From a virus, in IMG/VR virus record IMGVR_UViG_3300048068_000305, positions 1 through 24,971 of that record: DNA of 24,971 nt; one strand, 5' to 3'. The notes beneath the pieces were generated by a model. That model was not told where the DNA came from. It did not search any database and worked only from the letters and a program-made list of their open reading frames with translations. Made by a program: the position numbers and the translations under genes. Numbering within the stretch: position 1 is the first letter of the stretch; the number at the start of each line of letters is the position of its first letter. Shown in pieces: positions 1,566 through 24,971 of this stretch.

Positions 1566-1569
1566 AAAT

Positions 1570-3996: not shown

Positions 3997-4028
3997 TAAT
4001 AATAGTAATAATTATATAATATTTTATC

Positions 4029-5198: not shown

Positions 5199-5223
5199 AA
5201 CAACAACTTAAAACTTAAAAATT

Positions 5224-6645: not shown

Positions 6646-6657
6646 AGCTTAACTAAT

Positions 6658-6703
6658 GTAATTGTTACCCTCGTTGTATTGGCGGGGGTAATTATTACTT
6701 TTT
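6658..6703 (+). terminator. Rho-independent terminator after the capsid gene
   Basis: Bases 6658-6673 pair with 6683-6698 to form a 16-position stem. It has one mismatch (6663/6693) and two G-T wobbles (6664/6692 and 6671/6685), and a 9-base loop. The GC-rich upper stem (6667-6673 with 6683-6689) is followed at the base by TTTTT (6699-6703). It lies just downstream of the major capsid gene, where a partial terminator would raise capsid transcript relative to the downstream tail genes. Confidence 0.82.
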
Positions 6704-6728
6704 ATCAATTATTTAATTATATTATATC

Positions 6729-7556: not shown

Positions 7557-7564
7557 GTCACTAA

Positions 7565-7607
7565 TTATAGTAGCTAGGCCGCTATAATGGTGGCCTAATT
7601 ACTATAA
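7565..7607 (+). terminator. Hairpin between virion genes, possible weak terminator or processing site
   Basis: Bases 7565-7582 pair with 7590-7607. The inner stem TAGGCC/GGCCTA is perfect and is extended by GC and G-T pairs. A C-A mismatch (7574/7598) and a wobble precede nine more outer pairs. The loop is the 7 bases 7583-7589. No T-tract follows on the + strand (an A-rich stretch follows instead), so it is not a textbook terminator. It fills most of the 70-base gap before the next gene and may be an RNA processing or stability element. Confidence 0.5.
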
Positions 7608-7626
7608 ATAATAAAAAAATATACAA

Positions 7627-8358
7627 ATGGCAATAAGCGTGGATAGTGTTTACCAGCGGGTGCTTGGCATACTTAATAAAGAACAAAGAGGCTATGTAAC
7701 AGCTCAGGAATTTAACTTATTTGCTAACCAAGCGCAAGAAGATTTATTCGAACAATACTTTTACGATATAAACCAATTTGGTAGAATACCAGGTAATAGC
7801 ACAGAGTATTCGGACATGTTAAATCTACTTAACGAAAAGATTAACATATTTGAAACTTCAGCGCAACCAACTCGTACAGGAAACTTTTTTGACGAGCCAA
7901 CTGATCTATATAGATTGGGAACAGTAGTATATAAAAATACAACAACAAATTCCTTTGGTGCATCATCTACAGAAAGCATTGAAGCAGAGCGTATTAACGC
8001 TAACGAGTTTTTATACATAAACTCATCCCCATTAACAAAACCTAAAAACGTCAGACCTGTATTTGTAGCAAACACAAATGGAATCAGAGTTTATGGAAAC
8101 AGCGAGGTAACAGACGTTACTGAAGTTGAGTTTCAATACATAAAGAAGCCAGCTAAGGTTCAATGGGCTTACCAAATAGTATTTGACGAACCTTTATACA
8201 ACGCTGCGAATTCAGTTAACTTTGAGCTACATCCGTCGGAAGAAACAGAACTTGTAATTAAAATACTAGAATTATCCGGCATATTAATAAAAGACCTTAA
8301 CTTGTATCAGGTTATGAATCAAGAAGAGCAAGAAACCATTCAACAAGAAAAAGCATAA
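7627..8358 (+). CDS. Head-tail connector / ring protein
   Basis: This 243-residue protein begins with the pattern SVYQRVLGILNKEQRGYVT, followed by QEFNLFANQAQEDLFEQYF. I recall this N-terminus from structural proteins that lie between the capsid and tail hub genes in many marine and crAss-like podoviruses. Its likely role is as an adaptor or ring below the portal, comparable in position to T7 tail tubular protein A. The N-terminal 60 residues look helical, the middle is beta-rich and the C-terminus is a helix rich in Glu and Gln. The next gene starts 3 bases after the stop, which suggests linked translation. The assignment to a connector is from position and recalled family; which ring it forms cannot be told. 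Confidence 0.7.
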   Translation: MAISVDSVYQRVLGILNKEQRGYVTAQEFNLFANQAQEDLFEQYFYDINQFGRIPGNSTEYSDMLNLLNEKINIFETSAQPTRTGNFFDEPTDLYRLGTVVYKNTTTNSFGASSTESIEAERINANEFLYINSSPLTKPKNVRPVFVANTNGIRVYGNSEVTDVTEVEFQYIKKPAKVQWAYQIVFDEPLYNAANSVNFELHPSEETELVIKILELSGILIKDLNLYQVMNQEEQETIQQEKA

Positions 8359-8361
8359 CAT

Positions 8362-9282
8362 ATGGGTTTAATAAATCAAACAGACGAACAATACTACTTA
8401 GGCCCGGATGGAGTTTGGAATAGCTGGGATGAAGACTATGGCAATTACCAATTTACTAGTATTAAAGATATTATAAACAACTTTATTATATCATATGTAG
8501 GTGAGGAAAAAATTATACCTAAAGCTAAAAGAACCGATGTAGCATTTCACGCTCAACGAGGCATTCAGGAGTTCAGCTTTGATATACTGCCTTCGGTTAA
8601 ATCTGCTGAAATTGAAATAGGGCCTAATTTAAACTTCGTATTGCCTAAGGACTACGTAAACTATGTAAAATTAGTTTGGGTTGATTCTAACGGCATAGAA
8701 CGCGTTATATATCCAGCTCAGCACACTAGCAACCCATTCCCTATTCTACAAGACAATAATTACGAATATCTTTTTGATGAGCAAGATCAAGAAATAATAT
8801 CTGCGCAATCTTCAGAAACAAAGAAAAGGTTTGAGTCAACTAGCCGCAATGAAGTTAATAATAACATAGACAACTTAGATAATAAGCTAGGGGGTGGTTA
8901 TTATTTTAATCACTTTGGAAGACGCTACGGGCTTTCCCCTCAGCAAGCGCAATCTAATGGTGTTTTTTATATAGATCAACTTCAAGGAATAATATTCTTC
9001 GATTCTTCATTCGTAGGAAAAATAGTTACATTAAAATATATCTCGGACGGCTTAGGTACTGACGAAGAAATGGTTGTACATAAATTTGCAGAAGAAGCTT
9101 TATATAAGTATATAGCCTATGCTATTTTATCTACAAGAGCAAATACACCTGAGTATTTAGTAGCTCGTTTCAAAAGAGAAACTTCCGCCGCTAAAAGAAA
9201 TGCAAAAATTAGATTATCAAATATTAAAATTGAGGAGATTACACAGGTTATGCGTAATAAATCCAAAATCATAAAACACTAA
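8362..9282 (+). CDS. Head-tail connector / ring protein
   Basis: The 306-residue product is the second of two small proteins between the capsid region and the tail hub. It has a helical N-terminal region (about 30-75, TDVAFHAQRGIQEFSFDIL), a beta-rich centre (NFVLPKDYVNYVKLVWVD), a Gly/Tyr/Phe patch (about 175-192, GGGYYFNHFGRRYGL), and a basic helical C-terminus (SAAKRNAKIRLSNIKIEEI). The helix-beta-helix plan, with ISDGLG and EEMVVHKFAEEALYKYI near the end, resembles the ring or stopper proteins of crAss-like and marine podoviruses as I recall them. It would seal or join the portal to the tail. The genes on both sides lie 3 bases away, so all three are probably on one message. Confidence 0.7.
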   Translation: MGLINQTDEQYYLGPDGVWNSWDEDYGNYQFTSIKDIINNFIISYVGEEKIIPKAKRTDVAFHAQRGIQEFSFDILPSVKSAEIEIGPNLNFVLPKDYVNYVKLVWVDSNGIERVIYPAQHTSNPFPILQDNNYEYLFDEQDQEIISAQSSETKKRFESTSRNEVNNNIDNLDNKLGGGYYFNHFGRRYGLSPQQAQSNGVFYIDQLQGIIFFDSSFVGKIVTLKYISDGLGTDEEMVVHKFAEEALYKYIAYAILSTRANTPEYLVARFKRETSAAKRNAKIRLSNIKIEEITQVMRNKSKIIKH

Positions 9283-9285
9283 TAT

Positions 9286-12200
9286 ATGGCAGAGTTTGTG
9301 CATATTTTCCAAGCAGGGAGAATGAACAAAGACCTTGACGAACGTTTAGTTCCGAATGGAGAATATAGAGACGCTTTAAATTTAGACTTAGCGAACTCCG
9401 ACGCAAGTGATGTTGGAGCTATGCAAAATATTGCTGGCACAATACAATTGCGTTCAAAGGCAGGCACTGGAGCAACTTGGACCGGCGGTTATATAGACGC
9501 TATGACAAACCCTGTTTGTATTGGATCTTATAGAGATGATATAAACGAAAGAATATATTGGTTTATAGCAAGTGATGGTATTAGTGCAATTGCGGAATAC
9601 GATCAAACAAAAAATGAAGTTAGTCCTGTATTAGTAGATACCGCGGGTATTTTAAATTTTTCATCTGATTATTTAATTACAGGTATAAATATACTTGACA
9701 AGTTTCTATTCTGGACAGACGATCAAACTGAGCCAAAGAAGATTAACATTGGGAAGTTTAAAACAGGTTCTACTGATTTTATTACTCAAACTAAAATTCC
9801 TAAATGGGAACCTAACCAAGATAGCTATAACACAAATTTATCTGGGCGACCTGATTTTGTAGAAGCAGATGTTACTACAATTAAGCTTTCGCCTTTAACC
9901 GCTCCTGCAATAAACGCTTCGGTTAGCGAGTATGGTAATAATATTCCAGGAACAGGATTAACCCCTGTTACAACTACCTTTAACTACGAGGGCTTAGAAA
10001 ATTTTACATTTATACCGGATCTAACAACCGCACCTAGTAGGTTTGTATCATACCCTACTTATGGAGAATATTTAGAAAACAGGGAGAGTGGAGCTTACAT
10101 AAACAGTAGTTTTAATAATGCAGCAAATAACCCTAATTATGACGCAACTTACGGCTGGACCGGAGAGGTTACTTTTCAAATAAGCACTACAGTTACTGTT
10201 TGGGAGGTTGGTAAATTAATTACAATAAACGGAGAGTTTAATAATATATTCGGAGAAAATGTAAAATATTCTATACAGATGTCAATAGTATCTGTTTCTG
10301 GGTTGTTAATTACAGGTAGAATACAAGCTATATCTTCTAACATAGGTAAAACTATAAGCGGCGACGGGACAAGTACTCCTATTGTTTGGGAAGCTGTTCT
10401 TGAAGAAAAAGATCCGCTATTTGAATATAATTTTCCAAGGTTTGCCTATAGGTGGAAATATATAGATAATGAATATTCAGTGTATTCACCGTTTTCAGCA
10501 GTTGCTTTTGCTGGCGGGGAGTTCGAGTATTTAGCTGCCGACGGGTACAACCTAGGTATGGTAAATAACATAAGAAAATTATTAATAGATAATCTTACTT
10601 GGGGCAGCGACGAAGTATCTGAGCTTGACATCCTATATAAAGAAGCTCGCAGTACCGCTGTATACGTGGTAGATACTTTAAAAAAACAAGATTACACTTC
10701 TTTACCTACAAGTTTTGAAATTAAAAATGAATTAATAGGAGCCGTTGTAGAGGCAAATCAGATACTTAGGCCGTGGGATAATGTACCCCGTAGGGCTAAA
10801 TCTCAAGAAATAATTGGCAATAGGATAGTTTATGGTAATTACTTGCAAAATTACGATACATTTGGAGTGATTAATTTATCGACGGGTCAAACATCTACAG
10901 CCGTTGACTTGTCCTTGTCTTTGTTTAGCGAAACTCATCCTGGAAACGCAACAAACCCAAACCCAAACCCATATACTAGACTTCCGCGCCCGTCTTTAAA
11001 ATCTATAAGAACATATCAAATAGGGGTTGTATATAAAGACGCTTATGGCAGGGAAACACCGGTATTTTCAAGCCAAAATGCTAGCTTAAAGGTAGAAATA
11101 AACAAAGCTGTTTCTATATCAAAATTACAAGTTACCCCTAATAATATACCCCCTGCTTGGGCTACGCATTATAAGTTTTTTGTAAAAGAAACAGCTAATG
11201 AATATTACAATCTTGCTTTAGATAAATTTTACCCCGCTGAAGACGGCAATGTTTGGCTTTCTTTTCCTTCATCAGAAAGAAACAAAATTGATGAAGAAAC
11301 TTATTTAATATTAAAAAAACAACACGATAATAATGTACCCGTTGAAACTTTAAATAGATATAAAATATTAGCTATTCAATCGGAAGCTCCTTTGTTTGTT
11401 TCACAATTTGATGAATTTGTTGCATCCGCTGATGTTGTTGCAACAAACGAGCTGGAGCCTGGCCGTATTACTATTAACTTTACGGGTCCTTCTAATGATA
11501 ATAATCCAGCTTTTTTTAGCGGATTTAATGGTGGAAATAAAATAAAAATATCAGTTGGAGGTAATGATTCTGAGTTTTATAACGTAGTTGACGTTAGCAA
11601 TTCTGGAAGCAGCGGTGAGGAATATACTGTGCAATTAACTGAGCCATTAGGCATTGAAGTCCCAAATGTAGCTATTAATGACACTTTTATTATAAAAATA
11701 TATACAGAAGAAAAGAAAGACTTACCTGAGTTTGACGGGCGATTTTTTGCAAAAATAAACAGAGATTTTGCTTTTGACACAAATATTATTAGCTCTTTTA
11801 AAGCTTTAGCTCCCAGGTATGCCATTAAAGATGAAATTGATTTTTTGGGGACAGAAGTTTATGGGGGATTATCTCCTTTTGGTAAAGGTTATTATTATGC
11901 AGATAACGCTTGGAACGGAGGAAGTAACTGTAATGATGGAAGTGATCCTCATAATTGGGGTTTAACAGGGTGGACCGGCCCAAACTGGGGGCCATTTGGT
12001 AATTTGATGGGCTATGAGGAAGATTGGAATGGAGGGTATGCCCCGCCTACACTAGGAAGGCGGACGTTTGGTTTTGTATATGCCGGTGTTGGTAGCTGGA
12101 GTAATGTAGACTTTATGTCTGGTAATACCGGAGGGCACAGTCAAGTTAGAACCCCTACCGGGTTAATTTCTCCTGGAGCTAAGATAAGATTCAAATCTAA

Positions 12201-15200
12201 GAACGGAACATTTTCAAAAGTTTATCAAATACTAGAAGCAACTTCAAGATTGACATATAGAGGGCAGATGGATCAGGACTTTTTGGGGGGTTGTTTTGAT
12301 GATAACAATACAGCAAATTCCAAATTAGCTATTATACTTTATCTTAACGAACCAATTAATGATGAATGGATGCCTGAATGGAACGATTGGGCTACATTAA
12401 ATTCTGTATTGCCATCTATCCAGGTAGTTCAAAATGTTAGTACTGACGGTAACAAGCTATTAACATCTAGCAATCCAGCTATATTTGAAACAGAACCAAA
12501 AGAAAGTGTTAATTTAGACCTTTACTATGAGGCTAGCGACGCTATAGATATATCTGACTATAATAATTCTAACCAAATACTTAACTGGTTCAATTGTTAT
12601 TCTTACGGAACCGGGGTTGAATCTAATAGGATCAGGGACGACTATAACGCTGTTTTTATAGATAAGGGACCTAAGGTGTCTACTGTATTAGATGAACCAT
12701 ACGCAGCTGAGCGAAGAGGTAGCGGTTTTATATTTTCTCAAATATACAACTCTACATCTGGAATAAATAGATTAAACCAATTTATACAGGCTGAGCCAAT
12801 TACAAAAGACCTTAACCCTATATACGGAACAATACAGAAGCTACACGCTAGAGATACCGATTTAATATCTTTATGTGAAGACAAGTGCTTGCGCGTATTA
12901 GCTAATAAGGATGCTTTATTTAACGCTGATGGCAATTCTAATGTAACATCTAATCAAGCGGTGCTAGGGCAAGCTGTGCCTTACGCAGGCGAATTTGGTA
13001 TATCTAAAAATCCAGAGTCTTTTGCGTCTTACGGCTTTAGAGTTTATTTTACAGATAAAAACAGAGGAGCAGTAATAAGATTATCTAGAGATGGTATTAC
13101 CAATATTGCTGAAAAAGGTATGTCAAGTTTCTTTGCTGATAACTTAAGAACATCAACTACTGCTATAGGTAGTTATGATGATGATAAAGATATATACAAT
13201 CTTACATTGGATAACTTATCTAACTACTGGCAAAAAAGATTAAGCCTTGATGCTAAATACCAATTAGATCCAGATTGCGAAGACGCTCCCGATAGCTTAG
13301 TGCCTAGTGCAACAATATCATTTAAAGAAAGTGTTGACGGCTGGACAAGTAGAAAAAGCTTTATTCAAGAATCAGGCATAACTTTAAATAATTTATATTA
13401 CACTTTTAAAAGTGGTCTTGTATGGTTGCATGGCGCAAATGCTATTTACAATAATTTTTACGACGTACAATACGACAGCTCATTTAATGTTTTAATAAAT
13501 GAAATGCCACAAGTTGTAAAAGGCTTTAGTACTTTAAATTATACGGGCACAGCATCTAGAGTTTTTGAATACCAAGGGCCAAACGAAAAATGGTATTCTA
13601 TAGCAGAAGTTAATGCTAATCAAATAATACCTGAATTTTCACAGATTAAAAAACATGGCTGGTATACTAGTTTTGTTAGAACAGATCTTGAGGCTGGCGA
13701 AGTTAAAGAGTTTCAAAAGAAAGAAGGTAAGTATTTTAATTACATAAAAGGTACTTTAATTGGGTGTGAACCTGACGGCGGGGGTATTGGACCTTGTTTA
13801 GATTGCGGAGAAGATACACCTCAAGACTACTTATTAACAGTTACTATTGACGAAACTTGTAGCAGCTCAGGCTCTCCAATCCCTGATACTGATTTTAGAG
13901 GATGGTACCAGTGGAATGCTAAAGGAATAACATCTCCAATAATAGATGAACTTACAGCTCAAGACGCTAAATGTATTATAGACGACTTTTACGCTCAAGT
14001 TAGTGGAAACTATTCCGAGGTAGTTGTATACAGCAACCACTTTAAGTATGTGTTTGAAGATGGTATATCTGTAGGTACTCAAATGTATGATTCCACCACT
14101 TTAGAGCCCGTAACTACTCCAGGATGTTATTTGTACATAAAGAACCCTCCTGGAGCGCTTCCAAATAGCCCTGCTTTAGATCCTGGTAATCCAACTGAAG
14201 CACCTGTTACTTACTTTATAGTTATATGGGGAGCTGATGGAATTATAGACAGTGTAACACCATATATCTCTCTTACAGTATGCCAGGCACTCCCAGATAC
14301 CTATTGGTCTATGTGGACTACCTTTCAAGTTATAACACAAGAAACGGGATCGCATATAGAGAACTTAAATAATTATTCTAACGCTTTAGATAGCAAGTGT
14401 GCGCTTGAGGATTTATATCAGTTAACGGTTGATGAAACTTCAACAGGAGGTAGCCAAAGCGGAATAGGATTTTATTTTTATAGCAATATTGGCTTTGGAG
14501 AAGGCACGCAGCTTTACGCTCAAAATGGTATTCCACTGAGTCTTAATAGTCCTGGAGCTCACTTGTTAGTAAGACCTCCAGCGGAGAATAATTTAAACAA
14601 TGACGTTTTTATACGAGATAACGGCGTATCTGCTCCGGACTCTTACGAAATAGTAATTGTAGGTAGCAACGGAGTGGTAGAATCCATAACACAATATAAC
14701 ACTATTACAGGATCTTGTTCCGAGGACCCTTACGAGCCGATTGAAGGTCAAGACTTTAGGTTCATAGCTACAAAAACCGCGTCTCCATATTTTGGATTGT
14801 TTGATAACACTTTAACAGAAGTAAGCTCTCCCTATACATTTGCGCCTGTGCCTAACCATATTAGCTCAGTTGTAGCTAAAGTAAGCGACAACTACAATTA
14901 TATGCTAACTGCAGGACTGTATGACTCTCAACCAGTTTATTTATCAACTGATAATGGAGAGAGCTGGAGTAACTCAACTTTTTCCGCCAACAAAAATAAC
15001 GTTCATATTTCTAGATCTGGTCAGGTTATGATTATTGAAAGCGGGGGCTTTAATAATGCCTTAATTGAAGTTTCAAATAATTTTGGAGATAGTTTTACAA
15101 CTTTTAATTTAGATAACATAATTACGCTAGGAACATCTGTTTCTTTTCTAAACAGGGTAGCATTGTCCTCAGGAGGTAAATTTATAACGATAAGTGTATT

Positions 15201-15732
15201 TGCTAATGGTGGGACTGCAAACGACAATAAATATCGTATATTAAAAAGCAGTGATTATGGAGCTAGCTTTAGTGATATAACTGACAACGTAGGCTTTCCT
15301 TTTACAGGTGCACGGTTTACAGTTGATATTCAAGATGGTTTAATATCAGGAAATGGTAAATATGAAATATACTTTAATGCTGCAGGTTTATCTAGATATT
15401 CTGACGACTATGGCGAAACATTTATTGATAAAAACTACGCACAAATTGATTGGAATCCAAGCGGTCAAATAAGTGAAAACGGGAAATATTTTATGTTAGA
15501 AGGAGGTCAAAATAGTAGGTATTCAACTGATTTTGGCGCTTCAGAAACACTGTTAGCAGCCCCTAACTCTTCATATGGAGATATAGGCGTAAACAGCTCA
15601 GGAGAATTTTCTTTTGCTACAGGAAGCAATAGTAATAGTATGTCGTATAGCAATGATTTCTTTGATACATTCACAACTATTGGCCCAGTAGCGGACGTTA
15701 CTAAACCTTTTATATTAGTAGACGTAGGTTAA
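9286..15732 (+). CDS. Tail hub / stabilisation (muzzle-like) protein with modular receptor-binding C-terminus
   Basis: This 2148-residue protein starts with a segment (residues 10-40, GRMNKDLDERLVPNGEYRDA) shared, as I recall, by podovirus tail stabilisation or nozzle proteins such as P22 gp10-like and crAss muzzle proteins. Residues 1-1490 form one large, mostly beta body with no signal peptide, ending in the conserved-looking SFVRTDLEAGEVKEFQ region. A Gly/Cys hinge (about 1493-1510) follows. Residues about 1513-1666 and 1667-1811 are two diverged copies of one domain. Residues about 1850-2148 carry six Asp-box motifs (S-x-D-x-G-x-x-W/F), expected to fold as a beta-propeller. The N-terminal part probably closes the tail channel and the C-terminal modules probably contact the host surface. 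Whether the propeller has an enzyme site is not clear; I see no obvious sialidase Arg triad. It is much longer than typical family members because of the added modules. Confidence 0.8.
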   Translation: MAEFVHIFQAGRMNKDLDERLVPNGEYRDALNLDLANSDASDVGAMQNIAGTIQLRSKAGTGATWTGGYIDAMTNPVCIGSYRDDINERIYWFIASDGISAIAEYDQTKNEVSPVLVDTAGILNFSSDYLITGINILDKFLFWTDDQTEPKKINIGKFKTGSTDFITQTKIPKWEPNQDSYNTNLSGRPDFVEADVTTIKLSPLTAPAINASVSEYGNNIPGTGLTPVTTTFNYEGLENFTFIPDLTTAPSRFVSYPTYGEYLENRESGAYINSSFNNAANNPNYDATYGWTGEVTFQISTTVTVWEVGKLITINGEFNNIFGENVKYSIQMSIVSVSGLLITGRIQAISSNIGKTISGDGTSTPIVWEAVLEEKDPLFEYNFPRFAYRWKYIDNEYSVYSPFSAVAFAGGEFEYLAADGYNLGMVNNIRKLLIDNLTWGSDEVSELDILYKEARSTAVYVVDTLKKQDYTSLPTSFEIKNELIGAVVEANQILRPWDNVPRRAKSQEIIGNRIVYGNYLQNYDTFGVINLSTGQTSTAVDLSLSLFSETHPGNATNPNPNPYTRLPRPSLKSIRTYQIGVVYKDAYGRETPVFSSQNASLKVEINKAVSISKLQVTPNNIPPAWATHYKFFVKETANEYYNLALDKFYPAEDGNVWLSFPSSERNKIDEETYLILKKQHDNNVPVETLNRYKILAIQSEAPLFVSQFDEFVASADVVATNELEPGRITINFTGPSNDNNPAFFSGFNGGNKIKISVGGNDSEFYNVVDVSNSGSSGEEYTVQLTEPLGIEVPNVAINDTFIIKIYTEEKKDLPEFDGRFFAKINRDFAFDTNIISSFKALAPRYAIKDEIDFLGTEVYGGLSPFGKGYYYADNAWNGGSNCNDGSDPHNWGLTGWTGPNWGPFGNLMGYEEDWNGGYAPPTLGRRTFGFVYAGVGSWSNVDFMSGNTGGHSQVRTPTGLISPGAKIRFKSKNGTFSKVYQILEATSRLTYRGQMDQDFLGGCFDDNNTANSKLAIILYLNEPINDEWMPEWNDWATLNSVLPSIQVVQNVSTDGNKLLTSSNPAIFETEPKESVNLDLYYEASDAIDISDYNNSNQILNWFNCYSYGTGVESNRIRDDYNAVFIDKGPKVSTVLDEPYAAERRGSGFIFSQIYNSTSGINRLNQFIQAEPITKDLNPIYGTIQKLHARDTDLISLCEDKCLRVLANKDALFNADGNSNVTSNQAVLGQAVPYAGEFGISKNPESFASYGFRVYFTDKNRGAVIRLSRDGITNIAEKGMSSFFADNLRTSTTAIGSYDDDKDIYNLTLDNLSNYWQKRLSLDAKYQLDPDCEDAPDSLVPSATISFKESVDGWTSRKSFIQESGITLNNLYYTFKSGLVWLHGANAIYNNFYDVQYDSSFNVLINEMPQVVKGFSTLNYTGTASRVFEYQGPNEKWYSIAEVNANQIIPEFSQIKKHGWYTSFVRTDLEAGEVKEFQKKEGKYFNYIKGTLIGCEPDGGGIGPCLDCGEDTPQDYLLTVTIDETCSSSGSPIPDTDFRGWYQWNAKGITSPIIDELTAQDAKCIIDDFYAQVSGNYSEVVVYSNHFKYVFEDGISVGTQMYDSTTLEPVTTPGCYLYIKNPPGALPNSPALDPGNPTEAPVTYFIVIWGADGIIDSVTPYISLTVCQALPDTYWSMWTTFQVITQETGSHIENLNNYSNALDSKCALEDLYQLTVDETSTGGSQSGIGFYFYSNIGFGEGTQLYAQNGIPLSLNSPGAHLLVRPPAENNLNNDVFIRDNGVSAPDSYEIVIVGSNGVVESITQYNTITGSCSEDPYEPIEGQDFRFIATKTASPYFGLFDNTLTEVSSPYTFAPVPNHISSVVAKVSDNYNYMLTAGLYDSQPVYLSTDNGESWSNSTFSANKNNVHISRSGQVMIIESGGFNNALIEVSNNFGDSFTTFNLDNIITLGTSVSFLNRVALSSGGKFITISVFANGGTANDNKYRILKSSDYGASFSDITDNVGFPFTGARFTVDIQDGLISGNGKYEIYFNAAGLSRYSDDYGETFIDKNYAQIDWNPSGQISENGKYFMLEGGQNSRYSTDFGASETLLAAPNSSYGDIGVNSSGEFSFATGSNSNSMSYSNDFFDTFTTIGPVADVTKPFILVDVG
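13822..14718 (+). repeat. Tandem duplication of a ~145-residue domain within the tail protein
   Basis: Copy 1 spans bases about 13822-14283 and copy 2 spans 14284-14718. Shared landmarks, in order, are an aromatic N-terminal start (DTDFRGWYQW / DTYWSMWTTF), a Lys-Cys centre (AQDAKCIIDDFY / LDSKCALEDLY), a GTQ-M/L-Y turn followed by a Pro/Gly segment, and a C-terminal strand pair (FIVIWGADGIIDSVTPY / EIVIVGSNGVVESITQY) ending in Cys. DNA identity is low, so the duplication is old. The function is unknown; binding modules are likely. Confidence 0.75.
14944..15672 (+). repeat. Six Asp-box (BNR-like) repeats forming a predicted beta-propeller
   Basis: Asp-box-like motifs occur at residues about 1887-1894 (STDNGESW), 1930-1937 (SNNFGDSF), 1988-1995 (SSDYGASF), 2039-2046 (SDDYGETF), 2080-2087 (STDFGASE) and 2122-2129 (SNDFFDTF). 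Starts are spaced 43, 58, 51, 41 and 42 residues. Most are preceded by a S-G-x-G-K/Q/E strand such as ISGNGKYEIYF. Such motifs occur on the blade edges of sialidase-type and VPS10-type propellers. Confidence 0.82.
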
Positions 15733-15764
15733 AATAAATAAAAATAATTTAATAATAAGTAAAT

Positions 15765-17852
15765 ATGCCAAGTTTTAACAATTATACATTTACAAACATC
15801 CAGTATACTATACCGGAAGGAAGCAATGTTTCTATATTATACCCTACAGCACAAATAACAATTGTGCCAAATAGTGGGTATACAGCAAACGCTGCAGATT
15901 TTTCACTAGACCCTAGCTTTTCTGACAATGCAGTACAGTCCGTAGTTTTTACCCAAGATGGTTTAAATGTACTTTGTACTGTAACTTTTGACACAGGATT
16001 TGTAATGCCTTCAGGTAACTACACAATACCTTTGTGCGTTGTAGGTGAAGGAACTGTAGTTAACATAAATGTTGCAGGGTTAGTATATTCTTCAGTTGGT
16101 GAAAACATTAGCGGAGACGGCCCTGAAACCGGAACTGCTTTTAGCAACTCAGGAAGCCTAGGCCAAACAGAATTGTTACTTACAAGAACGTATAATGCAG
16201 ACGCTGGCTACTATTGGGAAACGTCTAATTACCCTACGATTAATATAACTCAAGGTAACCAAGCTAATTATAACATAGTACAAACGCCTACTTATGCCGG
16301 AGACGATTTAACAGGTATTTCTTATGCGGTTAATTATACATACCCTACTCAAGACAATTTACAAGAGCGCATTGCGATAAATGTACCAGGAGTTAGTTTA
16401 ATATATGTTGCTCCTCAGTATATTACAAGTTACTCTGGATTACCTAGCACGGTTAGCGGCTATGGACAGGAAGTTAATGGTTGGCGAATATATGGAAGTG
16501 AAGGAGCTAGCGTTACGGCTACTTTAGTAAGTCCTAATCACTCTGCTGTCATTTGCAGCGACACTATTGGTAGCTCCGGCTTTATAAGCGCTGACATATT
16601 GTTTCCAGATATAAATCTTTCTTGTAATGGTTTTTGTAACGAGGTGTACACTATTACACTAACAGGAGATTTGGACCCTGCTTTTGCTCAACCAAACCCT
16701 ATAACAGTCTATCAATCTACTGTTCAACCGAGAATAGAGTTTACAGCGAGCTCTTCCTACGGAATAACTGGATATTCTCAAATAGAAACCAAAGGATCTG
16801 CCTATACCGTTCTATCTTCACCTCAAACAATACCAGTAGAGTGGACTTTAACTACACCTTTAGGGACTATAAGCCCCCCTTCTTCATCTATAGACTATGA
16901 TACTATAGTTTTAGAAAACAACCAAGTAAGTTTCCCTGAAGCTACATCAGATCAACTTAATGTAAATAATATTAATGTTAATTCAACAGCTGGCATATTG
17001 CCTGGCGATGTTTTTAATAACGAATTTATTTCAGGATCTTACCAAACACCTACGGGCAATAATGAATCGTTAAACGCTGGCTTGTATTCTCCTTTTGAAT
17101 ATACTGTTACCGCTGTAAACTCTAGTACAAATATAAGTGTTACGCCTAATATATCTATAAAGGAAGGTTTTATATTAACAATTGTTAGAAATGGAGGCAA
17201 TGTAGTAGATATTTCAGATATAAGCTTAACTCAAGTTGATTCTGCAACTGTAAAATTAAGCGCAATATTTAATGTAAATTCTTTTGGGTATGAAAATAAA
17301 ACTTTTATTTTAAATCTAGACGAAGCATTAAGTTTTACGCCAAACTTAGCCTGCGCGGCATCTGCTGTTAGTGGAGGTGAAGGCATAACAGATTATTCTT
17401 TAGACTTGGATCCAGCAGGAGGTGTTGTTGCGTTCCTAGTTAATGGGCAAGGGTTGCCTGATAAGTTTGAAATATTCCACGGCTTACCTTTTGCTAATGA
17501 CAAAAAAGCAACATCCAGCATGAGCGCTTCCGGAAACTTGGGGCCTTTTGAAAATGTTTTTGGAACTGAGCCTATCAACTTAATACCAACTTCATCACAG
17601 CTGAATCAAGATCAATTTATAGGTTCTGATAAAGGAACAATTCCAAATAGAACTTCAGAATTTTTTAATGATACTGGATTTACTATACCAAGTATGACTG
17701 TAGGCGGAACAACTTATCAACAGGTTGTTTGGTGGCAATATACAGCAGCTGATTATACTAATAATTCAAATGCAACAATAAGAATAACAGGGCCTTCTGG
17801 AACAGGATGGGATGCTTTAAGATTATGCTGCCCTGACGGAAACTGTACTTAA
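15765..17852 (+). CDS. Beta-rich tail fibre or adhesin-like protein
   Basis: This 695-residue protein is almost entirely predicted beta strands, with Ser, Thr, Asn, Gly, Tyr and Val dominant. At least two N-terminal units (about residues 10-115 and 140-210) share a strand-GY-turn layout (VPNSGYTANAADF / YNADAGYYWETSNY) and suggest repeated Ig-like or similar beta-sandwich modules. Residues about 540-695 form a distinct C-terminal module (GLPDKFEIFHGLPF, then a GPFENVFG segment, VVWWQYTAADY, and a terminal RLCCPDGNC). I recall this C-terminal pattern from other marine phage and bacterial surface proteins, without a named function. Next to the tail hub, it is probably a receptor-binding fibre. 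No catalytic motif is seen. The 9-base spacing to the following gene suggests joint translation. Confidence 0.7.
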   Translation: MPSFNNYTFTNIQYTIPEGSNVSILYPTAQITIVPNSGYTANAADFSLDPSFSDNAVQSVVFTQDGLNVLCTVTFDTGFVMPSGNYTIPLCVVGEGTVVNINVAGLVYSSVGENISGDGPETGTAFSNSGSLGQTELLLTRTYNADAGYYWETSNYPTINITQGNQANYNIVQTPTYAGDDLTGISYAVNYTYPTQDNLQERIAINVPGVSLIYVAPQYITSYSGLPSTVSGYGQEVNGWRIYGSEGASVTATLVSPNHSAVICSDTIGSSGFISADILFPDINLSCNGFCNEVYTITLTGDLDPAFAQPNPITVYQSTVQPRIEFTASSSYGITGYSQIETKGSAYTVLSSPQTIPVEWTLTTPLGTISPPSSSIDYDTIVLENNQVSFPEATSDQLNVNNINVNSTAGILPGDVFNNEFISGSYQTPTGNNESLNAGLYSPFEYTVTAVNSSTNISVTPNISIKEGFILTIVRNGGNVVDISDISLTQVDSATVKLSAIFNVNSFGYENKTFILNLDEALSFTPNLACAASAVSGGEGITDYSLDLDPAGGVVAFLVNGQGLPDKFEIFHGLPFANDKKATSSMSASGNLGPFENVFGTEPINLIPTSSQLNQDQFIGSDKGTIPNRTSEFFNDTGFTIPSMTVGGTTYQQVVWWQYTAADYTNNSNATIRITGPSGTGWDALRLCCPDGNCT

Positions 17853-17861
17853 AATAAAAAT

Positions 17862-18200
17862 ATGGCAAATATAACTTTAACATTTTCAAACCCCTTACCC
17901 GAAGGAATTCAAGTAGGAGACATCGCTTGGTATTTAGATGTTGATGCCGAACCTGCACCTACAGAAGTAGAAATGGGGCCAATACTTTCAATAGGAAGTA
18001 ACCCTGTCTCTATAGTTGTAGACGCAGCAGTAGGCGTTGGTTCTCCCTCGCAAGATGATTTTATTTTTTATGCTGAAAATCCTATTGGTTTTTTAGGGCA
18101 GCTTAAAGGGTACTATGCTGAAGCTCAGTTTAGGAATAGTTCAACAAGCTACGCCGAGTTATTTTCCATAGGGTCAGAAATATTTGAGAGTAGTAAATAA
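17862..18200 (+). CDS. Small conserved tail/structural accessory protein
   Basis: This 112-residue protein begins 9 bases after the fibre-like gene. It starts with MANITLTFSNPL, has a beta-rich core (VQVGDIAWYLD, GPILSIGS), and ends in GYYAEAQFRNSSTSYAEL followed by GSEIFESSK. I remember very similar short proteins with this C-terminal ending next to tail fibre genes of marine Bacteroidota phages, but no proven function is known to me. No signal peptide or membrane segment is visible. It could be a fibre cap, baseplate-like adaptor or decoration protein. The start is supported by the first Met of the frame and an A-rich leader. Confidence is high that it is a gene, low on role. Confidence 0.72.
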   Translation: MANITLTFSNPLPEGIQVGDIAWYLDVDAEPAPTEVEMGPILSIGSNPVSIVVDAAVGVGSPSQDDFIFYAENPIGFLGQLKGYYAEAQFRNSSTSYAELFSIGSEIFESSK

Positions 18201-18231
18201 CGTGTAATAATAATATATAAAACTTAATATA

Positions 18232-18873
18232 ATGATAGGTCAAGTAGTTGGCGGATTAACCAGCATAGCTAGCGGTATAATCGGCAGTAAAAAAAGAAGG
18301 CGAGAGGCTAGTAGAGCGGCAGCAGAGTTAAAAAAGCGTAAAGCTGAATATGAAAGACAGGACACTTCTAACGTATACACAAACATGCAAAACACCATGG
18401 AGGACTTAACCGTTAACCAGCAAGCTGCACAATTTCAAGCGGAACAAGAGCAACAAGGACTTTCTAATATAATGGGGCAAATGCAAGGCGCAGCTGGAGG
18501 ATCTGGCATTGCAGCATTAGCTCAATCATTAGCGGGGCAACAATCTCAAAACCTAAGAAGAGCATCGGCGGACATTGGCAGACAAGAACAAGCTAATCAA
18601 ATGGCTGAAAGAACCCAAGCGAGCAACCTTCAGCTTTATGAAAAGAAAGGTGAATTAATATCAAGAGACGCAGAAAAAGATAAAATATCAACCCTAATGG
18701 GCATGGCTCAACAAAGATCTGCAGCGGCAAATCAGGCAAAACAAGATGCAACAAATGCTATTATTGGTGGAATCGGCTCAACAGTTGGCGGTGTTGCTTC
18801 TGCTCTAGGTGGTACGCCAAATATGGGTGGATCCGGAGGAGGGTTTATGCAGAATATGATGGGCAACGGGTAA
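18232..18873 (+). CDS. Internal virion / ejection protein (small, T7 gp14-like in plan)
   Basis: The 213-residue product starts with a hydrophobic Gly/Ile stretch (VVGGLTSIASGIIGS, residues 4-18) followed by a strongly basic patch (KKRRREASR). Residues 20-170 are a long Gln/Ala/Glu-rich helical region (about residue 60-130, with AAQFQAEQEQQ and GGSGIAALAQSLAG). The C-terminus has a glycine-rich hydrophobic segment (AIIGGIGSTVGGVASALGG) and a disordered GGSGG tail. This plan, a small amphipathic membrane-active-looking protein opening a cluster of three increasing-size virion genes, resembles the T7 ejection proteins gp14-gp15-gp16. It would be packaged in the head and injected to help form a channel in the host envelope. 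The similarity is architectural, not an alignment. Confidence 0.6.
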   Translation: MIGQVVGGLTSIASGIIGSKKRRREASRAAAELKKRKAEYERQDTSNVYTNMQNTMEDLTVNQQAAQFQAEQEQQGLSNIMGQMQGAAGGSGIAALAQSLAGQQSQNLRRASADIGRQEQANQMAERTQASNLQLYEKKGELISRDAEKDKISTLMGMAQQRSAAANQAKQDATNAIIGGIGSTVGGVASALGGTPNMGGSGGGFMQNMMGNG

Positions 18874-18890
18874 TTAATAAAATATAAATT

Positions 18891-20297
18891 ATGAATCAAC
18901 AGTTAGTAAAAGGAGCCGCCTTAATAGGGCAAAGCAATAGGTCCACTTGGAATCAAGCTTTTCAAAAAAACCTAAATGCATCTTTAGCAGAAGGAGCTAA
19001 AAGACAAATGATCCGTAAAGCTGAGAAAGCTAGAGCTAATGCTAAAACGGCTGGGTATATAGAAAGTTTAAATTCTAAAGTAGATACTACTAGCTTATCC
19101 AGTTCCCAGCAGCAAGCTGTTTCAAATTACCTTACCGATCAGAAAATGCTATACGCAGACGCTGCTAGGAGAATATCTAAACTAGACCCAACTCACCCAG
19201 AGTACATGGCCGTTCGTGACGAGATGAACGCCGTGCAAATGAATTTTACAAATTTAGCAGGTTCGTTAAATCAATACAAAGAAGACAAAAGCAATTATTT
19301 AGCAGATTTTGATAACAGTTTGCTTTCTGCTGGCAACAAAACTAGCACTTATGTGGAGGCTTCTAAAATTTATACTGACGAAGGATTTGTTGGGATTGGA
19401 GAGGGTGGCGTGTTAAATTTCTGGAATGACGCTAAAGGAGAATACAAAAAATACCAGGATATAGACAAGCCTTTCTTAAAAGACACAAAATCAGCAAATA
19501 GCATACTCCAACTCAATGAGCAATTATACAACTCAGGGAAGGAATTAAATGGCACCAGAAGAAATATGGTGCGTCAAAAATTAAATAGCATGATTAGCTC
19601 AGGAGGTAGAGATACTTTATTGTCACTAGCCTCTGATGATTTTATAATAGAAGGTGGATTGGGCTTACAAGATCCTAACTTATTCGAAAAAGAAAACGAA
19701 GCATTCCTTAAGGAGGCTGTGCTGGACGGCTATATGAACGTGTTAGAGGACACCGCGTCACAAGGAGCTATTGACAATAGACCTAAAGTCTCAGGAGGCG
19801 GTAGAGGGGCTGGCGGCAGAAAAACTTTACAAGAAGAAATACCTGTTGTTAATGATGCTTTTGCTTTTTCTCAAATGAGCACTAATGTTGCTCCTGGAGA
19901 CAGAGAAGCTAAAACTAGATTACTTGTTCAAGAGATAAATGCAATAGACCCCACTAAGGCAGGTAACTATTATTCTAGGGGGGATTTTTACAACATGTGG
20001 CTTGACGGCGTAGGAGAGAACGACAGTGATGAGGCTCGAAGAGTTTTTATTAACACCTACGGGGATTCCCAAATATTCCTGTTTAATGAAAAAGACCCTG
20101 AACGATCTATGCCTATTAAGATGAATACTGATAACCCTCAAGACTTGTATGAGTTTTATTTAAAGAATTCTAATCTTAACACTAGAGCGCAGAATTACCA
20201 CATCGGACAATACGAAGGCTATATAGCAAATTCTGAAAAACCAAAAGAAAACAATACTACTTCTTCTACAGGAGGAGGTTCACTAGACAATCTTTAA
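18891..20297 (+). CDS. Internal virion / core protein (predicted)
   Basis: This 468-residue, mainly helical and charged protein follows the small ejection-type gene. The N-terminus (MNQQLVKGAALIGQSNRSTW) and residues 30-140 are predicted helical with an Arg/Lys-rich patch (KRQMIRKAEKARANAKTA). A flexible Gly-rich linker (SGGGRGAGGRK, about residues 301-311) separates two halves. The C-terminus is Ser/Thr/Gly-rich and disordered. No enzyme motif is seen and I do not recognise a precise family. The location between a gp14-like protein and a giant polyvalent protein suggests a packaged core or cargo protein ejected with the DNA. The next gene's ATG lies 4 bases after the stop, suggesting coupled translation. 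Confidence 0.62.
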   Translation: MNQQLVKGAALIGQSNRSTWNQAFQKNLNASLAEGAKRQMIRKAEKARANAKTAGYIESLNSKVDTTSLSSSQQQAVSNYLTDQKMLYADAARRISKLDPTHPEYMAVRDEMNAVQMNFTNLAGSLNQYKEDKSNYLADFDNSLLSAGNKTSTYVEASKIYTDEGFVGIGEGGVLNFWNDAKGEYKKYQDIDKPFLKDTKSANSILQLNEQLYNSGKELNGTRRNMVRQKLNSMISSGGRDTLLSLASDDFIIEGGLGLQDPNLFEKENEAFLKEAVLDGYMNVLEDTASQGAIDNRPKVSGGGRGAGGRKTLQEEIPVVNDAFAFSQMSTNVAPGDREAKTRLLVQEINAIDPTKAGNYYSRGDFYNMWLDGVGENDSDEARRVFINTYGDSQIFLFNEKDPERSMPIKMNTDNPQDLYEFYLKNSNLNTRAQNYHIGQYEGYIANSEKPKENNTTSSTGGGSLDNL

Positions 20298-20301
20298 TTA
20301 A

Positions 20302-23300
20302 ATGGAAAAATTATTTAACTCCTTAAGCGAAAGCGGAAAATACACTAAATCTTTTGAAGATTTTCAAACACAGTTTGGGTCTAAAGAAGGTCAAGAAAAA
20401 CTATACGGAGCATTAAAAAACTCTGGTGATTATACAAAATCTTTCGGTGATTTTAGTAATCAATTTTTTGCTGCAGAACCAGTAAAGACAAACGACTCTG
20501 CAAGTGCGGATCCAGCTGTGGAGTCAAGCCAAGAAGATACGGGGTCCAAATCGGAAGAGCCTTTATCGGCGTGGCAATCTATTAAGAATACATTCAAAAA
20601 AGCAGGTGAACGTATCTATGACGTTGTTGAGTTTTGGGGCACTGACGAAGGTGCTAATTCCGGGTTAGATATAGCTACAAACTCATTTTATTCATTATTA
20701 TCAAGTCAAGAAGCCGTTGATGAATATGCAAAAAACAACCCCGGCTGGATGTCAGAAGGCTTGGGATCTGAAGCGACTATAGAGGCTATAAAAAAATATA
20801 AACTAGAACAAGATGAAAGTAATTTTGCTACTAAAGGTATTGTAGCTAGCGCTAAAGAAGGCGATGTAGGCGGACTTATAGCTGGTAGCGTTGAAGCTTT
20901 AGTAAATGCTTTTTCTAGCGGTGTATATTTTTTAGGTACAGGGTTGGGAGCTGGAGTCTTTTCTGAAGTTGCTGCTGAAAATTATATTACATATAACGAA
21001 CAAAAAGCTGAGAACTTAGGCGTATCTTTAGATGAACTTATTAGATCAGGCGAAGCAGACAATTTAGCTCCGGTTGGATTAGGTGCTGTTAGTGTTGGAT
21101 TAGAAAGATTTGGATTTGGTAAAGTTTTAAAAGGCATTGCTGGTAAAAATATAATTAAAAACGCTAGTGCTAAACTTATATACAATAGAAAAGCTAGAAA
21201 TGTTGCTAATATATTGGCAGCTGGGGGAGTAGAATCTGCTACGGAGATATTACAGCATGCTACCGATAAAATAAATGAAGAATTTGGTAGAACAGCAGGA
21301 ACAGAAGAAGACGCTAAGTTTGTGCAAGCCACTTTCGACGCTATATTTAGCGAAGAAGCGCTTGAAGCTGGATTACAGGGGTTAATAGGCGGTGGTGGAT
21401 TATCTGCAACAGGAACCGGTTATAGAGCTATGAACACGATAAGAACCACTGTAGATGGGGATTTAATTGATAAAAACTTAGAGGACTTAAGTAAGCTGAG
21501 AGTAAAATTTAATAAAGCCACTGATAAAACAGAAAAAGCTGGCATACAAAAACTAATAGATACTAAAGAGTCAGAAATAGCTGATTCTGTAAGGAAAGGC
21601 AATGACATATATAATAGTCTCTCAGATGGGCAGTTAAAAGAAATAGAAAATTTAACAGATCTAGCTGACGCTGCGGCATATCAAGTTACTGAGCTAAATA
21701 AAAAGTTTAGAGCAGGGGAAATCGACAAAGCTGGCTATGATTTAGCTTATCAAGGTTTTAAATCTGAATATGATAGCGTACGCCAGCAACTTATTGATAT
21801 GAACCTCGAGCAAAACATAGAGTTTGCAAAGCAAGAGGCTGAATCAAAGGGGCTTAAATTTAAAGTTTACGAAACCACGAAATCTTTGCAACAAGCAATG
21901 AATAGGTTTAAGACAAGCAAAGAGAATAAGCAGGCTTTTAAAGACAACAAAGGTAATATACACGGATTTGCCATAGGTAACCAGATATTTATTAACAAAG
22001 AGGTATCTAGTAAATTAGGCGCCGTAAACGTTGGAGCACACGAATTTTTACACCCTGTGTTTAACAAACTAGTTGGGAATGTTAAGGAGCAAAGCAAAAT
22101 GGTTCGTCAGTTTAGAAAATCAATGACCTCATCTCAAAGAAGGTTTGTTGATGCTGAAATGAAAAAAAGGGGGTATACAGGTAAAGAATATAATACAGAG
22201 TATGTTAATGTATTTTCTGATGCTTTACGTAAAAAACAAATTAATTACGATAAAACAACATTTGAAAAAATAGGAGACGCTATAGTAAGTGTTTTTAAAC
22301 CAGTAGGCTATACTAATATAGGCTTTGAGTCTGGTAAAGATGTATATAATTTTATTAAAGAATTTGACCAAAGTGCAGAACAGGGTAAATTAACAACAAA
22401 AGCAGCAGAAGCTCTTAAAGATGTTGATTTAAGTGATGCTGGACTACAAGACGAGCTACAGACCTCTAAAACATTATCAGAGGACGTTAAGGCTACATTG
22501 ACAGATAACATAACGGAAATAAAGAATCTAGCAAAAGAGAACGCTGAGATAGCTGCTAAGTTTAATAAAGAGCCTATTAAAGGAGCAAAGCAAGTAAGAT
22601 TAGAAAGAGAAGTTATTGAAGGCGTAAAACCTTTGGTTGAAAAAATTGTTACAAATCGTACAAAAGCATTGTATGACAAAATAGCAGATGATGCTAAAAG
22701 AGGCGTTACAAGAGAACAGTTCCAAGAATCAATGCGAGCTGACATTGAAACAATGATCCTTAATGAATACGATGCAACCAAACAAGATCTCGAAAAGTTT
22801 ACAGTAAGCAGAGCGTATTTAAGAGCTAACAATTTAGCTAAACGTTTAGGAATAGAATCTGTAGAAGAAGGCGGTATCAAACAAGATATAGATACTGCTA
22901 AAGGCATTACAGAAGAAAAAACCACAACCACAAAGCCCAAAGAACCTTCTGTAGAAAGAGGGCAAGCTACATTTGATGAGCTTGACATCATTGACGATGC
23001 TTTAATTGAAGATATTAAATCTGAGCTTGAAAAAGAAATAAGGACTAGGGTTCAAAAGGGTACATTAGCGGAAACTGTTTCTGTTAAAAAAGGTAGAGAA
23101 ACTTATATTGTTTCTTGGCTAGAAAATTATGTTAACAAACAGCTGTTTAAAAAGCTTCTTAAAAAAGTAGGTGCAATTAAAGGAACATATCCTAATACTA
23201 TAATACCTACTGCATATATTGACTTTTTACAAGATCCTAAAACTTTTGATATTATAACAAAAGCTTTACCTATTAAAAGTATAAAGAAAAGTTACGGTAA

Positions 23301-24971
23301 GCTATTTGGAATAGAGCGCATAGGTAGAGAAGTTACCGCGGAGGGTAACCCTGTATTTAGAATAAAGAAAATCGATAAGACTAAGTTTTTTAAATACTTT
23401 GTTGAAGGGAAAAAATCAACTGTATTAGAAAGACAAAAGCAATTGTTTAGAGAAATACTTGAACCGTTAGCTAAACAAGCTGTAGCTGACTTCACTACTG
23501 CAGAAAACTTAGAAAAATTAAAATCAATCCAAAGTTTAGCTCCCGCAACTTCTGTTGATGTTGTTAATAAAATAAGCTTAGATGCCGCTCTCAATAATTT
23601 AGAGTCCCAAATAGACCGATATAAAGGCGAAGCTGCAGGATTTGATATTATACAGTTTAGCTTAACTAAACAGGAAAGATCACAAATTGCGGAAAAACTA
23701 GACCTAAAAAGTGATAGCAATATAACAATGGCCCAAATTGAAGCTCAAGTTATTGCTCAAACACTTAGACCTCTTGTTAAAGAAAGAAAAGCAGAAATAA
23801 AAGATATTGAGTACAAATTAGGCCCTGAGTTATTTGAAAAACTACAAAACACCGTAATAGGCCCTTATTTGGATTCACTACAGGCTTTGCAAGACAAAAA
23901 AGCTTATGCGAGAGGTACTTTTGCAGAGCAGCTCGCATGGGATGCTTTTAAAGGCGTTAAAGGTGTTAAAATGGTTTCTAAGCGTCCTGATGGAAAAGCT
24001 GGAAGTTCCGCTCCTGATATTGTAATAAATTACAAAGGTCAAAATATTATATTTGAGATTAAAAGTAGAAGATCGGATAGAATAACAAGTGTTAATATTT
24101 ATAACTATACCGATTCTAAAAACTATAAAACCACAAGAAACACAGGTACGGAAAGCGAACAAATTATATTTGATCAAATAAAGAAAAGCAAAAACTTAAA
24201 TAGTTTTGTTTCTAAGGTTAAAAAAATGATGGATAAATTTTATCCAGGAGAGAATTACTTAGATAAAAATGGTTACATAGAATTAACACCTGAGCAAATT
24301 GTAAAATTAAATTTAAAAAATAGCCTATATAAAGAAACTGTTACATATATAGAAGGACTAAATGAAAAATTAGTAGAAACTATATATAACGAAAAGGGAG
24401 CCAACTATATAGGCTTTACCGACATAGGGAGTTTTTATGTTGGTAATAATAAAAATAATTTATCAGTTCCTAAATTTCAAGCGGACTTATACTCAAGAGC
24501 CTGGCTTTACATGGGTCAAATCAAAAAAAATGGAAAACATACATTTCCGTTAAGAATGTTTGCGCAAATATCAACTGAATCAAGTAAAAAGCTAGGTGAA
24601 GCTAAAACAGATTCTATTATTAATAGCAATTCTATAAAAACAATCCTTCAATTTAGTTTAACAGCTGCTCAACCAATTGAATTTCAGGATAGTAGATTAA
24701 AAGGAAGACAAATAAGCACTTTTGACATAAACGGAGTCGATTACCAGGCTGAGCTGTTTGATTTTAAAAATTTAGCCTCAACTTTTGACAATGCAGAAGA
24801 GCTATTTAAAGCGATGCAAAAAGTTTCAGGAAGTAAAAAAGTAACATCTGAAGAATATAAGTATTTTGTATTTGATAGAAATGATGACACTGGAATTGTA
24901 AGTCAACAAGGAGAAGAAGTGGAATGGAACGGTAAAAGATGGATTTATCCTGAATCTGACACAAAACAATC
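20302..24971 (+). CDS. Giant polyvalent virion protein with zincin-like and PD-(D/E)XK-like regions (3' end outside window)
   Basis: The frame is open from ATG 20302 to the window edge (at least 1556 residues, no stop) and all + strand lines in this frame read as coherent protein. Residues 3-55 are two 30-residue-period repeats. Residues about 190-380 hold hydrophobic Gly/Ala-rich helices (GGLIAGSVEALVNAFSSGVY; GLQGLIGGGGLSATG). Residues about 390-515 look like coiled coil. At 580-584 is HEFLH, an HExxH zinc-peptidase motif, with Glu633 (in NTEYVNVFSDAL) a candidate third ligand. A Thr/Lys/Pro linker (about 870-890) follows. Residues 1209-1256 give Glu, Pro-Asp and EIK in PD-(D/E)XK spacing. 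It is probably a packaged, injected protein replacing T7 gp16-type proteins; the enzyme roles are inferred. No RNA-polymerase DxDxD motif was noticed in this part. Its C-terminus is unknown. Confidence 0.8.
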   Translation, partial: MEKLFNSLSESGKYTKSFEDFQTQFGSKEGQEKLYGALKNSGDYTKSFGDFSNQFFAAEPVKTNDSASADPAVESSQEDTGSKSEEPLSAWQSIKNTFKKAGERIYDVVEFWGTDEGANSGLDIATNSFYSLLSSQEAVDEYAKNNPGWMSEGLGSEATIEAIKKYKLEQDESNFATKGIVASAKEGDVGGLIAGSVEALVNAFSSGVYFLGTGLGAGVFSEVAAENYITYNEQKAENLGVSLDELIRSGEADNLAPVGLGAVSVGLERFGFGKVLKGIAGKNIIKNASAKLIYNRKARNVANILAAGGVESATEILQHATDKINEEFGRTAGTEEDAKFVQATFDAIFSEEALEAGLQGLIGGGGLSATGTGYRAMNTIRTTVDGDLIDKNLEDLSKLRVKFNKATDKTEKAGIQKLIDTKESEIADSVRKGNDIYNSLSDGQLKEIENLTDLADAAAYQVTELNKKFRAGEIDKAGYDLAYQGFKSEYDSVRQQLIDMNLEQNIEFAKQEAESKGLKFKVYETTKSLQQAMNRFKTSKENKQAFKDNKGNIHGFAIGNQIFINKEVSSKLGAVNVGAHEFLHPVFNKLVGNVKEQSKMVRQFRKSMTSSQRRFVDAEMKKRGYTGKEYNTEYVNVFSDALRKKQINYDKTTFEKIGDAIVSVFKPVGYTNIGFESGKDVYNFIKEFDQSAEQGKLTTKAAEALKDVDLSDAGLQDELQTSKTLSEDVKATLTDNITEIKNLAKENAEIAAKFNKEPIKGAKQVRLEREVIEGVKPLVEKIVTNRTKALYDKIADDAKRGVTREQFQESMRADIETMILNEYDATKQDLEKFTVSRAYLRANNLAKRLGIESVEEGGIKQDIDTAKGITEEKTTTTKPKEPSVERGQATFDELDIIDDALIEDIKSELEKEIRTRVQKGTLAETVSVKKGRETYIVSWLENYVNKQLFKKLLKKVGAIKGTYPNTIIPTAYIDFLQDPKTFDIITKALPIKSIKKSYGKLFGIERIGREVTAEGNPVFRIKKIDKTKFFKYFVEGKKSTVLERQKQLFREILEPLAKQAVADFTTAENLEKLKSIQSLAPATSVDVVNKISLDAALNNLESQIDRYKGEAAGFDIIQFSLTKQERSQIAEKLDLKSDSNITMAQIEAQVIAQTLRPLVKERKAEIKDIEYKLGPELFEKLQNTVIGPYLDSLQALQDKKAYARGTFAEQLAWDAFKGVKGVKMVSKRPDGKAGSSAPDIVINYKGQNIIFEIKSRRSDRITSVNIYNYTDSKNYKTTRNTGTESEQIIFDQIKKSKNLNSFVSKVKKMMDKFYPGENYLDKNGYIELTPEQIVKLNLKNSLYKETVTYIEGLNEKLVETIYNEKGANYIGFTDIGSFYVGNNKNNLSVPKFQADLYSRAWLYMGQIKKNGKHTFPLRMFAQISTESSKKLGEAKTDSIINSNSIKTILQFSLTAAQPIEFQDSRLKGRQISTFDINGVDYQAELFDFKNLASTFDNAEELFKAMQKVSGSKKVTSEEYKYFVFDRNDDTGIVSQQGEEVEWNGKRWIYPESDTKQ
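20308..20466 (+). repeat. Two tandem 30-residue-period N-terminal repeats in the giant protein
   Basis: Residues 3-25 and 33-55 align without gaps at an offset of 30, with 14 of 23 positions identical, including a shared YTKSF, D-F and Q-F core (GKYTKSFEDFQTQF / GDYTKSFGDFSNQF). Codons differ between the copies, so the duplication is old or under protein-level constraint. Confidence 0.8.

Follow-up and report, generated by a model that had tools for sequence, protein, structure and literature searches.

The window, i.e. the whole 24,971-bp stretch of DNA that was analysed, is a linear virus sequence in which a giant gene is located after the head/tail structural cluster (Table 1). The portal, terminase and capsid-type genes were shown to match phage families, with the portal and a second structural protein matching phages of Flavobacterium, Cellulophaga, Tenacibaculum and Maribacter; named relatives of the phage are Elemovirus and Cellulophaga phage phi38:1. 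The phage is marine, with a member of the Bacteroidetes as its likely host. In phi38:1 (gp101) and Elemovirus, the giant proteins encoded at the syntenic position are annotated as structural proteins. Iterated profiles revealed no sequence homology between the window giant and the giants of phi38:1 (gp101), Elemovirus or ctfjg026. As the syntenic giants lack detectable sequence similarity, the label 'structural protein' reaches the window protein by position alone.

Table 1. Coordinates of the features of the window discussed in the text
Feature	Position	Strand	Remarks
Structural gene cluster, upstream of the giant gene	60..20297	+	Terminase large subunit, portal, capsid-type and other virion proteins
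Giant late-gene protein	20302..24969	+	ORF open at the contig end; 1556 residues present, protein truncated
Two N-terminal repeats (SGKYTKSFEDFQTQF / SGDYTKSFGDFSNQF)	20302..20472	+	~30 residues each; found in giants of the same family only
HEFLH, HEXXH metallopeptidase signature	22039..22053	+	Residues 580-584; invariant in 67/67 aligned sequences
Glu633, candidate third zinc ligand	22198..22200	+	Invariant in 67/67 aligned sequences
Upstream boundary motif, QFS of IIQFS	23653..23661	+	Q1118-F1119-S1120; bounds the nuclease module
Nuclease module	23656..24651	+	332 aa (residues 1119-1450), flanked by two QFS motifs; full-length alignment with the modules of L092 and L086
PD-(D/E)XK active-site stretch	23926..24063	+	E1209 (helix), D1239 (strand 2), E1252-I-K1254 (strand 3)
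Downstream boundary motif, QFS of ILQFS	24649..24657	+	Q1450-F1451-S1452; L086 alignment ends at 1458
Start of a different module, after the second QFS	24652..24969	+	Residues 1451-1556; singleton segment

The closest relative of the window giant is a protein of 2370 aa (L086), to which it is 82% identical. The N-terminal repeats of the window giant may serve as a signal for packaging or docking. In the window protein itself, the Pfam search detected no curated domain of polyvalent proteins, the NCBIfam search returned unrelated weak matches only, and a Pfam match to HNOB (E 0.006) fell below the cut-off, for which reason HNOB was set aside as a domain of this protein. For the segment that follows the second QFS motif, no relative was found among the aligned giants.

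The first-pass annotation had proposed a PD-(D/E)XK nuclease-like site in the giant protein, and each of its elements was recovered: Glu1209 in GTFAEQLAW (starting at residue 1205; Glu1209 codon at 23926-23928), Pro1238-Asp1239 in APDIVI (starting at residue 1237) and Glu1252-Ile-Lys1254 in FEIKSR (starting at residue 1251; codons at 24055-24063), with an Asp-to-Glu spacing of 13 residues. A pattern this loose is frequent by chance, and conservation is the deciding evidence. Single-sequence searches with the domain against viral contigs, tblastn searches against named phages and a scan of genome contigs with the core retrieved no relatives. With the whole giant as query, three domain homologues were obtained, all of which keep the four residues; giants fetched via the conserved C-terminal region contributed divergent members, and scans with subgroups brought the family to 60 homologues, reached by iterative search down to ~15-20% identity.

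The acidic residues and the lysine of the proposed site (Asp1239, Glu1252 and Lys1254) proved invariant in these relatives. The profile alignment of the 60 homologues gave E1209 in 57/57, D1239 in 58/58, E1252 in 59/59 and K1254 in 59/59, where the denominators represent the homologues covering each position. To guard against a possible bias of the profile alignment towards matching residues, a second, independent alignment was made using MAFFT, in which D1239, E1252 and K1254 constituted three of just four fully invariant columns and E1209 was at least 90% conserved. Among nine homologues, down to 17% identity, 15 columns were invariant and included all four named residues, the chance of which is ~4 in a million under random placement with relatedness ignored. 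The module accordingly displays the catalytic triad of the PD-(D/E)XK superfamily, an Asp and a (D/E)-x-K, together with the helix-1 Glu that often accompanies it. Pro1238 is not conserved (Gly in 43 and Pro in nine homologues); variation at the Pro position is not unusual within this superfamily.

An AlphaFold2 model of the nuclease module, based on a 53-sequence alignment, was predicted with a pLDDT of 87.1 and a pTM of 0.77; it replaced an earlier AlphaFold run with four sequences (pLDDT 49), the PDB matches of which were meaningless. The model comprises a helix (13-67), four strands (72-77, 90-94, 97-104 and 110-117) and then helices at 133-163, thus presenting the alpha-beta-beta-beta-alpha-beta core of the PD-(D/E)XK superfamily, with E1209 in the long helix, D1239 at strand 2 and the ExK in strand 3. 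Ranking against the PDB using VIA-align placed the HhaI endonuclease first (Z 9.9, 169 residues, 3.4 A), followed by Hjc resolvases (Z 7.2), I-Ssp6803I (6.8), MspI (5.9) and HinP1I (5.9). Since Foldseek returned no PDB match below E 0.001 for this model, the structural case rests on the Z-scores, the residues, the topology and the consistency with which PD-(D/E)XK enzymes appear among the matches. Sub-threshold Pfam matches of the nuclease (PDDEXK_9, Hjc, Mrr_cat_2 and TnsA) all point to the same superfamily, and a P-SSM2 protein absent from the modelling alignment was a top fold match in BFVD (E 4.7e-10). Given the predicted alpha-beta-beta-beta-alpha core and the PD-(D/E)XK enzymes among the top structural matches, the fold assigned in the first-pass annotation is very probably right.

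The modular context of the nuclease, absent from that annotation, is the more interesting part. In 12 aligned giants, residues 1-1120 are common in part and a C-terminal region of ~670 residues is common, with a variable stretch in the middle. When the giants were cut at QFS, the resulting segments often matched over their full length, as seen for the nuclease module (332-337 aa), a HAD module (189 aa), a 60-aa module and the C-terminal region. Correspondingly, the alignment between the window protein and its closest relative stops at residue 1458, just past the second QFS (1450). The nuclease is present in 19 of the 75 giants fetched; other contents of the variable stretch include ART-PolyVal (E 4e-5), a Zeta/AAA_33 kinase and the HAD module. 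The latter, which resembles a phage polynucleotide kinase (phrog_415), was detected as a HAD/polynucleotide-kinase-like module in 22 of the 50 variable stretches scanned and comes after the nuclease in several relatives. As read from the aligned segments, the nuclease slot is exchangeable, with other modules, ART-PolyVal among them, replacing the nuclease in relatives.

Individual variable stretches provided further observations. An ART-PolyVal (ADP-ribosyltransferase) match was found at L099:11850-13280, where the window has the nuclease, and in one more of the 50 scanned stretches. At L159:6233-9997, a P-loop, GGPGSGKST, lies within the variable stretch and probably gave rise to the Pfam match to Zeta_toxin/AAA_33.

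Taken together, residues 1119-1450 are best read as a PD-(D/E)XK nuclease module with an HhaI/Hjc-like core that is an interchangeable cargo of a giant, polyvalent-type phage protein, a reading to which we assign a probability of roughly two in three. The computation supports a nuclease fold, an invariant active site, the replacement of modules, boundary motifs where the exchanges occur and, upstream, a HEXXH...E signature that does not vary.

The module boundaries carry the motif [IVL]-[QK]-F-S-[KR]. Within the 75 giants, 98 [QK]FS[KR] sites were observed compared with 11.7 in shuffled sequences, and the 765 other ORFs of the same loci contained 18 compared with 17.6 in shuffles. Homology breaks were located at most 3 aa from [QK]FS in 96 cases against 14.4 expected, a 6.7-fold enrichment for breaks that are not independent, the protein pairs behind them being numerous and overlapping. 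Across 72 members, the residues most frequent where the C-terminal region starts are [IV]-[QK]-[FA]-S-[KR]. The simplest reading of the motif would be that of a protease site. A strong alternative, not far below even odds, is that it represents a structural linker or a relic of module joining, i.e. a permissive junction where no protease acts. The strict motif is missing from 26 of the 75 giants, and at the level of boundaries it is degenerate in some (QAS, KSS and LSR) and absent from others, so the motif could be such a permissive linker. However, the Q/K, F, S and K/R residues are kept with varied codons (34 distinct 12-mers encode the 98 sites), and motif-site pairs within one protein differ in DNA in 75 cases and are the same in five, a pattern that speaks for selection acting on the residues rather than for a junction at the DNA level. 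The same counts led us to reject a recombination site in the DNA as the origin of the motif.

Upstream of the nuclease module, the giant carries a HEXXH...E zincin signature, for which region no zincin Pfam match was found; it constitutes a candidate protease for cleavage at the motif. Carriage of the giant protein in the virion is suggested by the position of its gene and the annotation of the syntenic giants. The protein would be packaged and then ejected with the genome, upon which the putative metallopeptidase, or another protease, would cut at [QK]-F-S-[KR] sites and release the modules. The freed nuclease could introduce metal-dependent cuts early in infection into DNA of the host or a rival, or into the phage's own replication intermediates, and the kinase/phosphatase-like module, which often follows the nuclease in relatives, would possibly act together with it. 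In its full form, this proposal holds that marine phages pack a polyprotein, whose nuclease, phosphatase, ADP-ribosyltransferase and other plug-in modules may be freed at [IVL]-[QK]-F-S-[KR] by a built-in metallopeptidase, rendering effectors exchangeable between phages with packaging and release intact; we advance it tentatively and regard it as rather doubtful in this complete form. Should cleavage indeed take place at the QFS sites, the sequence by itself would suffice to recognise the ends of modules and new effector domains, and a defined substrate motif would become available for the self-processing proposed for polyvalent proteins.

Approximately half of the nuclease homologues are free-standing, unannotated phage ORFs of ~225-300 aa, including PSSM2_192 of Prochlorococcus phage P-SSM2 and gp181 of P-TIM40, both of which are designated 'hypothetical protein' and belong to phrog_26930, a family of unannotated function. 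DUF6267 adjoins the free-standing nuclease gene in 28 of 37 loci, and a cytidylyltransferase-like gene and a DnaB-type helicase are found nearby; this neighbourhood suggests an older role in phage DNA metabolism. The DUF6267 protein encoded directly downstream of most free-standing nuclease genes (L226:4269-5504 and similar) carries KWDGAP, which we take to be reminiscent of the ligase KxDG motif. The nuclease profile is matched by each of two tandem free-standing ORFs at L200:2675-4276, which suggests a duplication.

The DNA-metabolism setting of these homologues favours an explanation in which the nuclease is real and the giant protein is not injected, serving instead in the late cell, for example in DNA packaging, concatemer processing or recombination, and being fused just for co-expression. 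This explanation is unlikely: the variable stretch of relatives holds ART-PolyVal and Zeta-like modules, consistent with the pattern of injected polyvalent proteins (PMC5512222). Moreover, the window nuclease is a module of a gene that follows the structural cluster, in one protein with the HEXXH signature. That the domain is a catalytically dead, DNA-binding relative with the fold kept is highly improbable, as all four active-site positions are invariant in 57-59 diverse homologues, which is unexpected for a dead enzyme, even though activity has been lost in some PD-(D/E)XK relatives.

Compared with known systems, the predicted fold of the phage module holds the same type of PD-(D/E)XK site as HhaI (PDB 6uke) and HinP1I/MspI. 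It differs in that identity to HhaI is 11% and that no cognate methyltransferase was noticed in the phage window; a PDB sequence search with the phage nuclease gave no match at E < 0.4. With archaeal Hjc (PF01870; PDB 2wcw), the module shares the core fold and, along the D...ExK stretch, has a weak profile match (E 0.025-0.16). The window protein nevertheless scores 12.3-14.1 bits against the PF01870 cut-off of 21.1, and falls outside that family; the phage module also has double the length and a conserved C-terminal part of its own (Y1362, N1363, K1365, G1376 and G1381). Related members of the nuclease family match phrog_26930 by profile, the difference being that the phrog_26930 members are free-standing genes in other phages, whereas the window module lies inside a giant protein. 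The phrog_26930 family, present in well-studied cyanophages, thereby gains a testable identity as a PD-(D/E)XK nuclease.

Polyvalent proteins are described by Iyer et al. (2017; PMC5512222) as large, multidomain proteins for which injection along with the phage DNA is predicted and processing by metallopeptidases has been proposed. The giants resemble these as very large, multidomain phage proteins with a HEXXH signature and mosaic effectors including ART and a Zeta-like kinase, and several unrelated catalytic domains indeed occur in one very large phage protein: the window protein combines the HEXXH...E signature with the nuclease, and its relatives carry HAD, ART-PolyVal and Zeta-like modules. 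A PD-(D/E)XK module and a boundary motif, on the other hand, were not found in term searches of that paper. In Salmonella phage SPN3US (PMC10052503), proteins of the head undergo cleavage in the course of assembly, and ejection involves many of the proteins that were packaged alongside the genome; cutting there is performed by a separate prohead protease, gp245, whereas the giant studied here has its candidate protease within itself. In uncultured marine phages, a giant late protein emerges as a mosaic of payloads whose boundaries follow a visible rule. Both PD-(D/E)XK nucleases and polyvalent proteins are already known; within a limited open-access literature search, what appears to be new is the identification of phrog_26930 as a nuclease family, together with the QFS rule for boundaries.
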